Assembly: GCA_015065685.1 (NCBI GenBank)
Contig: SVPU01000015.1
Span: 1 to 36,649, forward strand
Source of the DNA: Oscillospiraceae bacterium
GTDB taxonomy: Bacteria; Bacillota; Clostridia; Oscillospirales; Acutalibacteraceae
Length of the DNA: 36,649 nucleotides
Reading direction: 5' to 3'
A program made the translations under genes and the position numbers. Positions within the stretch are counted from its first letter, which is position 1. Every line of letters starts with the position of its first letter. The notes below the pieces were generated by a model. The model saw only the letters and a list, made by a program, of their open reading frames with translations, ran no database searches and was not told where the DNA came from. Of the stretch, positions 946 through 33,708 are shown in pieces.

Positions 946-973
946 GCGAGACTTCCTTATGAGAAGTCTCGCA
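945..973 (-). terminator. Intrinsic terminator-like hairpin of glnN, bordering array 1
   Basis: An 11-bp inverted repeat TGCGAGACTTC / GAAGTCTCGCA with a 7-nt loop, 20 nt after the glnN stop. On the minus strand it is followed by GTTTTATT, an imperfect U-tract that doubles as the first linker of array 1. Confidence 0.65.
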
Positions 974-992
974 AGAATGGTCTTTTTAAATT

Positions 993-3080
993 TTAAATAC
1001 TTGATAATATCTCGCCATAGCTTGGATACGGCCAATATTTTGAAGGCACAACGCTTTCAGCACTGTCGGCATATTTTCTTATATCACTCATAAGCTTTAA
1101 TACCTCATCGTGATAAATTTTAGCCTTTTCAAGAACCTCTTCTGTTCTCTCAGCTCGTGCCACGGTCATCTTTAGCTTTTCACTCAAGGAATAAATTTCT
1201 TTATTCGCAGCAGAGAGTCGAGAAATAAACTCGCGTTCAACAGTTGAATTTATTCCGCCAATGCTATTCTTATCAAGTACCGCTGTGCAAAGAACATTGG
1301 TGTATTCAACTATCGCCGGCATAACCTCGCGGTTCATCATTTCAAGAATGGTTAAAGCTTCAATGTGAATTATTTTAGAATAGTTTTCGAGAATAATATC
1401 AATTCGTGAGTTTATTTCCGAGCTATTCAAAACCTTGTGCTTTTCAAAAAGGCTTACATTCTTTTCACTGCTGAGCAGCGGTATTGCATCAACCGTGCTC
1501 GCAAGATTGAGGAGCCCTCTCTTCTCGGCTTCCTTTTTCCATTCTTCAGAATATCCATCGCCGTTGAAGATAATGCGCTTGTGGTTTTTCATAACATCCT
1601 TGATGATGGCGTTGATTTCGCCTTCAAAATCAACGGCTTTTTCAAGTCTGTCCGCAAATCTCGAGAAAATTTCAGCAACCATTGTGTTAAGCATAACATT
1701 AACATCTGAAATTGACGAAGCCGAGCCTAACATTCTGAACTCAAATTTATTACCCGTGAAAGCAAAGGGAGATGTGCGGTTGCGGTCAGCATTATCCTTT
1801 CTGAAAGAAGGTATAATATCTGCACCCATATTCATTTTTTCACGCTTTGCGCTGTCGTGATGTTCGCCGTTTTCAATTGCCTCTAGGATACCCGTGAGTT
1901 CATCGCCCAAGTAAATTGAAATAATTGCAGGCGGTGCTTCATTTGCACCTAATCGGTGGTCATTTCCTGCAGTTGCAACCGCTATTCTTAATAATTCCTG
2001 ATACTCATCAACTGCAGCAATAACAGCCGCGAGAGAAATCAAAAACAACGGATTTTCATCAGGCTTTTTGCCGGGTTTTAAGAAGTTAATTCCCGTATCT
2101 GTAGAAAGCGACCAGTTGTTGTGCTTACCGCTTCCGTTAACACCGTCAAACGGCTTCTCGTGAAGCAAGCAAACAAGCCCGTGCTTGAGCGCTATTTTCT
2201 TCATCATTTCCATTGTGAGCTGATTATGGTCAGCCGCAATATTTATGGTGGTGAAAATCGGTGCTAATTCGTGCTGTGAGGGCGCCGCCTCGTTATGCTC
2301 GGTTTTAGCAAGCACACCAAGCTTCCAAAGCTCATTGTCAAGCTCGCGCATAAAGGCCGCCACACGCGGTTTTAAAACACCGAAATAATGGTCATCCATT
2401 TCCTGACCCTTAGGCGGCATAGCGCCAATAAGCGTTCTTCCGCAGAAAATAAGGTCTGGCCTTTTTTCATACATATTTTTTTCAACAAGGAAATATTCCT
2501 GTTCGGGTCCCACCGTAACATTAACGCGCTTAACATCCTCGTAGCCGAATAATTTAACTATTCTGAGCGCCTGTTTGTTTATTGCTTCCATACTGCGAAG
2601 CAAAGGGGTTTTTTGGTCAAGCGCTTCGCCCGAATATGAACAAAACGCGGTAGGAATGCAAAGGGTTTCATCCTTTACAAATGCGTAAGAGCTTGGATCC
2701 CAGGCGGTGTATCCCCTCGCTTCAAAGGTGGCTCTGAGTCCGCCTGACGGAAAAGAAGAGGCGTCGGGTTCACCCTTAATTAACTCTTTTCCCGAAAATT
2801 CCATTATAATATGTCCGTCACCAACAGGACTAATAAAACTATCATGCTTTTCGGCTGTTATGCCTGTAAGCGGCTGAAACCAGTGGGTGAAATGTGTTGC
2901 GCCCTTTTCAATCGCCCAGTCCTTCATAGCGGTGGCAACTGTGTCGGCAATGCTGCTGTCAATCGTTTTGCCCTCTTTAATGGTACTTTTGAGTATGTTA
3001 TAAACATCCTCGGGTAAGCGTTCTTTCATAACCGAATCGTTAAAAACATTCAGCCCGAAAATTTCATCAACCTTGCTCAT
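993..3080 (-). CDS. glnN: Glutamine synthetase, type III
   Basis: ATP-dependent condensation of glutamate and ammonia to glutamine in the cytosol, central to ammonium assimilation. At 695 residues it matches the large GSIII class (about 700), not the 440-470 residues of GSI. It carries the GSIII signature [19 protein letters not shown] (about 113-131), the metal/glutamate-binding GPEQEYF (191-197), [12 protein letters not shown] (263-274) and the ATP-site region [10 protein letters not shown] (315-324). ATG start with AAAGGAG 7 nt upstream. It stands alone with a consensus promoter upstream and a terminator hairpin downstream. No GlnR box or P-II gene is seen nearby, so nitrogen regulation cannot be read here. 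Confidence 0.96.
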
Positions 3081-31776: not shown

Positions 31777-31806
31777 AAATTATCTATTAATTTGTGTGGA
31801 GAAATT

Positions 31807-33162
31807 ATGAAGAAAAACGATGAAATAATTCTTGAAATAACAGACATCACCCGCGAGGGAAGTGGCGTTGGAAAATATAACGATATGGTTATTTTTGTGC
31901 CGCTCACCGCTATCGGAGACATTGCAAGAGTTAAAATTTTAAAGGTTAAAAAGAGCTTTTGCTATGGCAAGGCAGAAGAAATTTTGACCCCCTCGAAAGA
32001 CCGCATAACACCCGATTGCGATGTTTTTAGTAAATGCGGCGGCTGTGTTTACAGACATATGGCTTATTCTGCCGAATGTGCACTTAAAGAAAATCAGGTA
32101 TATGAGGTTATAAAAAGAATAGGCAAAACAGACCTTAAACCAAACAAAATCATCGGTGCCGAATATACCGAGCGCTATCGCAACAAGGCTCAATTTCCCA
32201 TAAGCTGTGATGGCAAAGCGGGTTTTTATGCCTTTCATTCGCATAGAATTATTCCTTGCAACAACTGCTTGCTGCAGCCCGAAATTTTCGCAGCTATCGT
32301 TGCTGTTTTTGAAGAATGGATAAGTGATTTTGGCATAAATATTTATGATGAAACCGCTCACACCGGACTTCTTCGCCATATTTATATCCGCTTGGCTGAA
32401 AAAACGCAGGAAATAATGGTTACCGCCGTTATAAACGGCAATTCTCTTCCCCATTCAGACCAGCTTGTTGAGAGACTTAAAAATGTTTGCGGCAGCGCGC
32501 TTAAAAGCGTTCAACTCAACATAAACAAAACCGATACAAATGTGATTTTAGGCGATAAATGCAAGGTGTTATACGGCCAAGAATACATAACCGACATTCT
32601 TTGCGGTGTGAGAGTGCGCCTTTCCCCGCTCTCATTTTATCAGGTAAATAGAACCATGGCTGAACGCCTTTATGAAAAGGCAGCAGAATATGCAGAACCC
32701 ACAAACAAAACCGTTCTCGACCTTTACTGCGGTGCAGGAACAATCGGACTTTCAATGGCCAAAAGAGCCAAGAAAATAATAGGTGTGGAAATCGTTCCGG
32801 AGGCTGTGGAGGATGCAAAATTCAACGCAAGGCTCGGCAGCATCCAAAATGCCGAATTCATTTGTGCAGATGCGGCCGATGCTGCAGAAAAGCTTGCAAA
32901 ATCGGGCATTTCTGCCGATGTTGTGATAGTAGACCCACCACGAAAGGGCTGCTCTGAAGAGCTTATTGGGACCATCGCAGAAAAGTTCTCACCCGAAAGA
33001 GTGGTCTATGTTTCGTGCGACCCCGCAACACTCGCGCGTGATATGGAAATCTTTTCTCACCTCGGATATACTCTCAAAGAATATACCCCCGTTGATTTAT
33101 TCCCGAGAACAGCGCATGTTGAGACTGTTGCACTTTTAGTGCAAACAGTCTCATCGATATAA
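31807..33162 (+). CDS. rlmD: 23S rRNA (uracil-5-)-methyltransferase, RlmD/RlmCD type
   Basis: Makes 5-methyluridine in 23S rRNA. 451 residues from ATG 31807, which has GGAG about 6 nt upstream. Order: TRAM domain (1-60), iron-sulfur ligands C71, C77, C80 and a later Cys in PCNNC (about 151-154), SAM fold with FYQVNRTMAERLY and DLYCGAGTIGLSM, and the nucleophile Cys in YVSCDPATLARD. The family normally ends just after HVETVALL; here a few extra codons (VQTVSSI) follow, encoded by the right arm of a hairpin and the first linker of array 2. Confidence 0.93.
   Translation: MKKNDEIILEITDITREGSGVGKYNDMVIFVPLTAIGDIARVKILKVKKSFCYGKAEEILTPSKDRITPDCDVFSKCGGCVYRHMAYSAECALKENQVYEVIKRIGKTDLKPNKIIGAEYTERYRNKAQFPISCDGKAGFYAFHSHRIIPCNNCLLQPEIFAAIVAVFEEWISDFGINIYDETAHTGLLRHIYIRLAEKTQEIMVTAVINGNSLPHSDQLVERLKNVCGSALKSVQLNINKTDTNVILGDKCKVLYGQEYITDILCGVRVRLSPLSFYQVNRTMAERLYEKAAEYAEPTNKTVLDLYCGAGTIGLSMAKRAKKIIGVEIVPEAVEDAKFNARLGSIQNAEFICADAADAAEKLAKSGISADVVIVDPPRKGCSEELIGTIAEKFSPERVVYVSCDPATLARDMEIFSHLGYTLKEYTPVDLFPRTAHVETVALLVQTVSSI
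33121..33152 (+). terminator. Terminator-like hairpin overlapping the end of rlmD, bordering array 2
   Basis: GAGACTGTT-GCACT, loop TTT, AGTGC-A-AACAGTCTC: a 14-bp stem with one bulged A. The left arm is the conserved rlmD coding sequence for VETVAL. No U-tract follows; array 2 starts at the next base. Terminator function is therefore uncertain. Confidence 0.5.
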
Positions 33163-33329
33163 ATCTCTTAGAGATTTTCTATATATCCTAAAGGATTCGA
33201 TATGTGCTCCCGCACTCGATATGTTGCCCTACGGCAACGAGATTTATATCATATCGAAATCGAACAACGCGAGTTTATATCGAATTTTACGAAGTAAAAT
33301 ATATCGGACACGCATAGCGTGTATATCGA
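33153..33329. repeat. Array 2: seven short hairpins separated by inverted TCGATAT-type linkers
   Basis: Left linkers: TCGATAT at about 33154-33160, TCTATAT 33178-33184, TCGATAT 33197-33203 and 33216-33222. Right linkers, inverted: ATATCGA 33251-33257 and 33277-33283, ATATCGG 33301-33307, ATATCGA 33323-33329. Hairpins: AAATCTC-TTA-GAGATTT (33161-33177), ATCC-TAAA-GGAT (33185-33196), GTGC-TCCC-GCAC (33204-33215), GTTGCC-CTAC-GGCAAC (33223-33238), an imperfect one at 33258-33276, ATTTTAC-GAA-GTAAAAT (33284-33300) and ACACGC-ATA-GCGTGT (33308-33322). In addition, 33157-33167 pairs perfectly with 33239-33249. It ends 37 nt before the ASCH gene. Same layout as the array at 771-945. Confidence 0.9.
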
Positions 33330-33366: not shown

Positions 33367-33708
33367 ATGACACATAACATGAAATTGCACTCATCACCTT
33401 TTGAAAAGATAAAAAGCGGTGAAAAAACCATAGAACTTCGTTTATACGATGAAAAGCGGAGGCAAATAAAAGTCGGCGATAAGATTATTTTTACAAATAC
33501 TACTACCGGTGAAACACTCAATACAACCGTTGCGAAATTACACCGCTTTGATGATTTTGAAGAATTATACAAATCGTTACCGCTTTTGCAATGCGGATAT
33601 ACACCCGAAGATATTGACAAAGCAAAGCCGTCTGATATGGAACAGTATTATTCTTTGGAAGAACAGAAAAAATACGGTGTAATCGGTATTGAACTCTGTG
33701 TACCTTAA
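33367..33708 (+). CDS. ASCH-domain protein
   Basis: 113 residues. ASCH is a PUA-like beta-barrel found in RNA-binding and RNA-processing proteins. The pattern is visible: MKLHSSPFEKIKSGEKTIELRLYDEKRRQIKVGDKIIF (about 5-42) with the conserved K..IE.RL.D.KR and the GD turn, and later CGYTPEDIDKA and YGVIGIELC. ATG 33367 has GGAG 8 nt upstream. It follows array 2 directly and has no clear promoter of its own; it may be read from rlmD or from within the array. Substrate unknown. Confidence 0.85.
   Translation: MTHNMKLHSSPFEKIKSGEKTIELRLYDEKRRQIKVGDKIIFTNTTTGETLNTTVAKLHRFDDFEELYKSLPLLQCGYTPEDIDKAKPSDMEQYYSLEEQKKYGVIGIELCVP

Follow-up and report, generated by a model that had tools for sequence, protein, structure and literature searches.

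An array of heptamers and hairpins at the end of an RlmD-type gene

We analyzed a 36,649-nucleotide stretch of DNA, here called the window, which is one contig of a draft genome (G000; 1.48 Mb, 91% complete) of an Oscillospiraceae bacterium. Its forward strand carries a methyltransferase gene (PF05958, positions 31792 to 33162), which we take to be of the RlmD/RumA type, and the open frame of this host gene ends inside a structured element on the same strand. The element begins with a terminal hairpin, h0 (33120 to 33153), whose left arm is formed by the HVETVAL codons of the host gene and whose right arm has a 1-nt bulge. It continues as an array of 176 nt (33154 to 33329) made of eight copies of one heptamer, four direct and then four inverted, with seven hairpins between them and the orientation switch at the center. 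The forward linkers L1 to L4 read TCGATAT (33154 to 33160), TCTATAT (33178 to 33184), TCGATAT (33197 to 33203), and TCGATAT (33216 to 33222), and the reverse linkers R1 to R4 read ATATCGA (33251 to 33257), ATATCGA (33277 to 33283), ATATCGG (33301 to 33307), and ATATCGA (33323 to 33329), with one change each in L2 and R3. The hairpins are h1 (33161 to 33177, AAATCTC..GAGATTT), h2 (33185 to 33196), h3 (33204 to 33215), the apex h4 (33223 to 33238), h5 (33257 to 33276), which is imperfect in the window's copy, h6 (33284 to 33300), and h7 (33308 to 33322). Between h4 and R1 lies the central GAGATTTATATC (33239 to 33250), a repeat of an h1 arm that the L1/h1 left arm may use as a second partner. 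Since h1's first arm can also pair with this repeat of its partner, a switch is possible; the repeat is indistinguishable from a duplication. An ASCH-domain gene (33367 to 33708, forward strand) follows the array directly, and no IVP gene lies beside it.

The seven hairpins and four plus four linkers described in the first-pass annotation are real: in one uniform scan of 317 contig segments, this array scored highest, with 14. Next came a first array at 772 to 944 on the reverse strand, with 12, and all remaining segments scored 10 or less. As that annotation had also proposed, the first array follows the same plan, central switch included, but its linkers are of the GTGATAT type, and since the linker words differ, the two arrays of the window belong to different classes. 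The first array lies 5′ of an IVP gene (23S_rRNA_IVP, PF05635; 373 to 723, reverse strand), which, with the TTG start picked by a script, encodes 116 aa, and its own h0 (946 to 972, reverse strand) lies 3′ of the gene at 993 to 3080. The larger hairpin h0 next to the array at 33154 to 33329, its central h1-arm repeat, and the link to IVP had gone unlisted in the first-pass annotation.

A dispersed family with a covarying fold

The proposal that the arrays belong to a dispersed family was borne out. The window's own genome holds four loci of the TCGATAT class, with only half an array at the one on contig C3, and two loci of the GTGATAT class; the first window array and an array on contig C18 are each the leader of an IVP gene. 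A strict TCGATAT pattern matched 16 of 60 related genomes, although the single matches in G010, G039, and G050 look like chance, and the reversed control pattern matched none. One relative, G009, carries about a dozen TCGATAT ladders, one of them adjoining an IVP gene of the TCGATAT clade.

We aligned 20 TCGATAT copies, chosen from the fetched ones as fairly complete. The consensus fold from RNAalifold pairs L1 with R4, L2 with R3, L3 with R2, and L4 with R1, and places hairpins on both sides of each junction, so that linkers and hairpins together are predicted to form a ladder of four-way junctions. Such pairing would account for the order of the linkers, four direct and then four inverted. 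There is little linker variation within the TCGATAT class, and the pairing is argued from the fold and the inverted order rather than from covariation. The hairpins, in turn, carry compensatory changes. Across the six alignable hairpins of the 20 copies, 97.0% of cells were paired, compared with 75.2% after shuffling; both sides had changed in 26 of 32 base pairs; and 152 cells were double changes, against 48.0 in shuffles. Sliding the columns by 1 to 3 positions destroyed this signal. An earlier reading of the two arrays as selected for structure and not sequence therefore holds in part: the hairpin stems change in step, but that reading was too narrow for the linkers, which keep their sequence: they are nearly the same throughout an array and differ between classes. 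G-U pairs made up 2.4% of hairpin pairs, compared with 10.2% in folded tRNAs; the comparison is rough, and we take it as a hint of folding at the DNA level or of palindrome correction.

Ladders are linked to IVP genes

IVP genes were found in 44 of the 60 related genomes and in none of 14 control genomes. We worked with 117 loci containing 120 IVP frames, the IVP matches left out being mostly weak or partial. Among the 113 IVP genes with at least 250 nt upstream, a ladder scoring at least 9 stood just upstream of 71, and one scoring at least 10 upstream of 61. Dinucleotide shuffles of the same 113 segments never reached 9, and two reached 8. With a stricter version of the score that required exact 6-mers, 53 of 113 reached at least 7, while the maximum in 339 shuffles was 5. 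The linker words at IVP genes were TCGATAT, GCGATAT, GTGATAT, ATGATAT, RTGATGT, RTGAAGT, RTGAAAT, ATGAATT, and AGCTAAA, plus two further kinds of opposite sense. A second set was built with a TCGATAT-clade IVP as query and comprised 80 loci kept from 498 GTDB relatives plus 3 viral loci. In this set, which had no shuffle control, 59 of the 79 loci with enough upstream sequence (76 GTDB and 3 viral) scored at least 9, mostly with TCGATAT- or GCGATAT-type words. When IVP genes were taken from other families in the phylum, 4 of 24 scored at least 9, three of these through direct repeats alone.

Each IVP clade has one heptamer word, with two small exceptions. When the 11 heptamer classes were placed on a tree of 114 of the 120 IVP frames, of which 60 were labeled by hand (L072 and L165 by eye) and 54 were left unlabeled, the labels required 10 changes, the minimum possible, compared with 43.5 for shuffled labels. 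The exceptions were RTGAAGT and one opposite-sense class, neither of which forms a single IVP clade. This pattern could come from co-inheritance of ladder and IVP alone. One IVP clade (L238, L240, L242 to L250) has ladders that are mostly of opposite sense, with ATATCAT first and its complement second.

Other arrangements were seen as well. In G056, the IVP gene sits between two half-ladders. IVP genes lacking a ladder yielded 16 strongly periodic flank segments, 14 of them with a period of 7. At nine such loci (L335, L339, L341, L343, L096, L106, L116, L118, and L193), the IVP is flanked by close-packed tandem heptamers, which in L335 and L116 lie on both sides of the gene. The IVP family has a solved but uncharacterized relative, 2RLD. 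IVP itself is not known to have a catalytic site; no recombinase or reverse transcriptase was found within the element.

Ladder placement at gene 3′ ends

Ladders sit at gene 3′ ends, those of tRNA genes included, and on the sense strand. In the 60-genome set, 31 of the 71 ladders lay within 260 nt 3′ of a tRNA gene on the same strand, and none followed only a tRNA on the opposite strand; where the sequence was read, the first linker often abutted the tRNA terminator hairpin. IVP genes without a ladder also followed tRNAs, in 14 of 42 cases, and placement at tRNAs may thus belong to IVP genes in general. In the second set, none of the 59 ladders lay at a tRNA and 20 lay at the 3′ codons of genes with a RumA/RlmD-type end motif. 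Random points, which were drawn in this second set and not in that of the 71 ladders, fell at a tRNA in 0 of 219 cases. An automatic test for a hairpin abutting the first linker, across all classes, was positive in 58 of 115 arrays and at 124 of 570 control points, a weak to moderate difference that may partly reflect divergent first linkers missed by the detector.

At the ends of RlmD-type genes, h0 takes its left arm from conserved coding sequence and its right arm from the element, and this right arm is fitted to the codons of its own host. From 34 candidate sites, three of which showed no clear h0 (L124, L208, and L265), we assembled a test set of 33 by leaving out these three, cutting L295, and adding L150 and L165. 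The h0 duplex energy averaged −21.0 kcal/mol for a site's own arms and −9.5 kcal/mol for swapped arms, and the own arm was best in 18 of 33 sites and among the top three in 27, with weak fits in L252 and L303, where it ranked 13th and 18th of 33. In pairs of sites encoding the same peptide with other codons, the own arm was better in 56 of 68 comparisons, equal in 4, and worse in 8, the pairs being ordered and non-independent. A 1-nt bulge recurs in h0 copies, and in L159, L199, and L211, the usual gene end can still be read in the inner right arm. The arm pattern is compatible with compensatory changes that were inherited or with fold-back copying that starts at a weak native seed.

We also considered h0 as a native terminator of rlmD and rejected this by comparing fold energies at occupied and empty gene ends, whose ranges almost meet. 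In the 60-genome set, fold energies ran from −11.7 to −21.0 kcal/mol at six RlmD-type ends taken as occupied and from 0 to −11.5 kcal/mol at 22 ends taken as empty. Only three of the six (L122, L133, and L135) have a full ladder by score; judged by eye, L125 and L141 hold short or decayed pieces, and L150 little beyond h0 and the first linker. Conversely, L124, counted as empty, holds part of an ATGAATT ladder.

Further gene ends were noted as sites. In L277, L279, L284, L287, L290, and L293, TCGATAT ladders stand right after one apparently conserved gene end, perhaps a second favored target. IVP ladders of two other linker classes (L199 and L111) follow what appears to be the same gene end (KIED.[FY]NWTY[KQ]L*). 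In two species (L044 and L089), an IVP gene and ladder lie at the 3′ end of presumably dusB-like genes, with h0 beginning at or near the stop codon.

Apparent movement of the element and probable loss of IVP

The spread of the element is uncoupled from the descent of its host genes. As would be predicted for a mobile element, IVP and host-gene distances were uncorrelated (Mantel r = 0.028, n = 27; 709 of 2000 permutations were as high) in a set chosen by likeness to one IVP clade and mixing RlmD paralogues. Mapped onto a tree of 54 host genes, occupied and empty states required 7 changes, 4 of them forced by well-supported branches, compared with 17.3 for shuffled states; the named rows in this tree are all occupied, as they were fetched by IVP, their IVPs belong to one clade, and paralogues are included. 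The element thus seems to move, although among the copies examined, we saw no exact empty site, target duplication, excision, or transcript.

A relative, G016, has the order rlmD, ladder, IVP, and ASCH gene, while the window has rlmD, ladder, and ASCH gene. The window's ladder is therefore probably a derivative in which IVP was lost at the rlmD site and the ladder and ASCH gene were kept. The ASCH gene directly follows IVP in two relatives (G016 and G007; loci L135 and L118) and may be cargo or a partner; because this order was seen at just two loci, we rejected it as general cargo. Viral spread was likewise set aside, with just 3 IVP relatives in IMG/VR.

Relation to Gut-1 RNA

The closest described RNA is Gut-1 (Rfam RF01706), reported in 2010 from the human gut only, marked "Y" for RNA and listed as being, most likely, a noncoding RNA (PMC2864571). 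Its 77-nt consensus consists of three hairpins with GUGAAAU-type heptamers between them. It thus resembles the window arrays in having hairpins separated by one repeated heptamer, but corresponds to half a ladder of a single linker class, and the part of the 2010 account available to us names no protein, target, or mobility (PMC2864571). In scans with Rfam's covariance model, nothing in the window passed the Gut-1 gathering cut-off: the first array (772 to 944) reached 47.7 bits where 50 are required, and the array at 33154 to 33329 had no Rfam match at an E value of 1 or less. The genome as a whole has four Gut-1 matches, at least one of which is the GTGATAT array on contig C10. Two scans of 20 array loci each placed 4 and 5 over the cut-off. 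Among the relatives, 44 of 60 had Gut-1 at an E value of 0.001 or better and 39 of 60 over the cut-off, with up to 48 matches in one genome (G059), while 1 of 14 control genomes had a match, below the cut-off. Of the 30 best listed Gut-1 loci, 24 hold a ladder scoring at least 10, a count made without a shuffle control, and 2 have an IVP gene nearby. Ladders of the Gut-1 type (RTGAAAT-like) are plentiful, and most of those inspected lack IVP.

One alternative is that the ladders are RNA elements in 3′ or 5′ untranslated regions, bound by IVP, that control RNA stability or IVP synthesis. We consider this unlikely, though it fares best among the alternatives. Ladders do form the leader of IVP genes and are found 3′ of same-strand housekeeping genes, the h0 arms are kept paired, and Gut-1 was itself listed as an RNA, but a regulatory RNA does not sit well with the patchy spread and many Gut-1 matches per genome, the untied descent of IVP and host gene, the class-specific places of the ladders, or the paucity of G-U pairs.

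Relation to known mobile elements and their helpers

The IVP family is known from the 23S rRNA intervening sequence (IVS). In Coxiella, the IVS has heptamer repeats before the S23 open reading frame and inverted ends that form a stem, and it was called selfish (PMC4990558). It shares with the ladder element the S23/IVP protein family and heptamers just before the open reading frame (PMC4990558), and the first window array stands beside an IVP gene as in the rRNA IVS, unlike the array at 33154 to 33329. Ladders, by contrast, are found not in rRNA but at the 3′ ends of genes, tRNA genes among them; hairpins separate their heptamers, and IVP mostly lies 3′ of the ladder, whereas the rRNA IVS holds its reading frame within the stem loop. 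The IVP between half-ladders in G056 resembles the latter arrangement. Excision by RNase III is a further hallmark of rRNA IVSs. That the arrays are themselves rRNA IVSs was rejected, there being no rRNA match in the window. The TAACTGA repeats of Beggiatoaceae, Cyanobacteria, and Bacteroidetes are also intergenic heptamers of patchy spread, for which a binding protein was considered as the possible mobile part (PMC4679880), but they are direct repeats, in contrast to the direct and inverted copies in ladders. A 2023 survey mentions IVP in a legend (PMC10910872). Among open-licence PubMed Central papers, we found none that joins IVP, heptamers, and hairpin arrays.

Two kinds of helper in trans were weighed. 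In the first, a group IIC or DGR-like reverse transcriptase, with IVP as an Avd-like helper, would copy ladder RNA into terminator hairpins. Avd of DGRs and IVP are related four-helix bundles (PMC10053308), the DGR target carries a hairpin or cruciform, and group IIC introns insert short distances 3′ of terminator stem-loops (PMC3240598); by eye, the ladder lies 3′ of a stem-loop in the window and in many copies, set against the weak to moderate outcome of the automatic hairpin test, and many ladders lie 3′ of tRNAs and their terminators. DGRs pair their reverse transcriptase with an Avd-like protein, but in G000 no RVT_1 was found, and no intron family exceeded its cut-off in the window or the scanned array loci. 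The RVT_1 profile matched 16 of 60 genomes, including ladder-bearing G027, G046, and G056, but not ladder-bearing G000, G002, G003, G005, G009, G013, G054, or G055, the drafts of G003 and G005 being only 72% and 57% complete. We regard this route as improbable. Slightly less probable still is that a DNA transposase, for example a Y1/RAYT enzyme, mobilizes the ladders as MITE- or REP-like repeats. Ladders are short, hairpin bearing, and multicopy, and Y1_Tnp occurs in 37 of 60 genomes, several of them ladder bearing (G003, G005, G009, G013, G027, G046, and G056), but REP/RAYT systems are expected to have a Y1 transposase in the genome, and this, the transposase family searched, was not found in ladder-bearing G000 (91% complete), G002, G054, or G055; the stable link of ladders is to IVP instead. 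Since each is absent from some ladder-bearing drafts while present in others, we rejected reverse transcriptase and Y1 transposase as required helpers, within the limits of these drafts.

Group I intron-like splicing, with h0 as the P1 helix, was considered since the host supplies one pairing arm and the element the other; it was dropped because no intron family exceeded its cut-off and because, in a few copies viewed by eye, the normal gene end is not re-created by what follows. Finally, AT-rich intergenic DNA does form hairpins and h0 at tRNAs looks like a normal terminator, but ordinary terminators plus chance palindromes between genes are a most improbable source of arrays whose score no shuffle of the 113 upstream segments attained, whose reversed pattern is absent, and whose covariation lies far above shuffles.

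A minimal selfish element

The reading that we favor, with a probability of roughly 0.64, is that the array at 33154 to 33329 is a copy, lacking IVP, of a minimal selfish element built around an IVP-linked heptamer ladder. By the mechanism that we propose, IVP, as a relative of Avd, would bind the heptamers on a folded strand, and the complex would carry the ladder to a gene-end hairpin. There, fold-back copying of the target strand might generate the h0 arm, or selection might fit the arm to the site; host enzymes would finish the insertion, and ladders without IVP would be non-autonomous copies or relics. A broader view, which we advance tentatively and hold to be somewhat less than an even bet, is that such elements constitute a transposase-free mobile class. 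In it, a four-helix-bundle protein and a ladder of its own heptamer would home to hairpins at gene and tRNA 3′ ends, the recognition arm would be copied from the target by fold-back synthesis, each copy would be an antisense record of its host site, and the rRNA IVS and Gut-1 would be fragments or offshoots.

On this reading, the array may represent a novel kind of very small mobile element, perhaps one that needs no known transposase and is common in gut Clostridia. It would tie together several orphans, namely Gut-1 RNA, which would gain a context, the unexplained S23/IVP proteins of the 23S rRNA IVS, and possibly intergenic heptamer repeats. It also offers testable partners (IVP and its heptamer) and a target rule (the 3′ ends of tRNAs and RlmD-type genes). 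The codon-fitted h0 arm was unexpected and points to an odd process of copying or selection. In G027, near-alike TCGATAT ladders occur on four contigs (C20, C66, C127, and C134; L152 to L155), three of them near contig ends; some have an extra hairpin unit, and they are perhaps recent copies.
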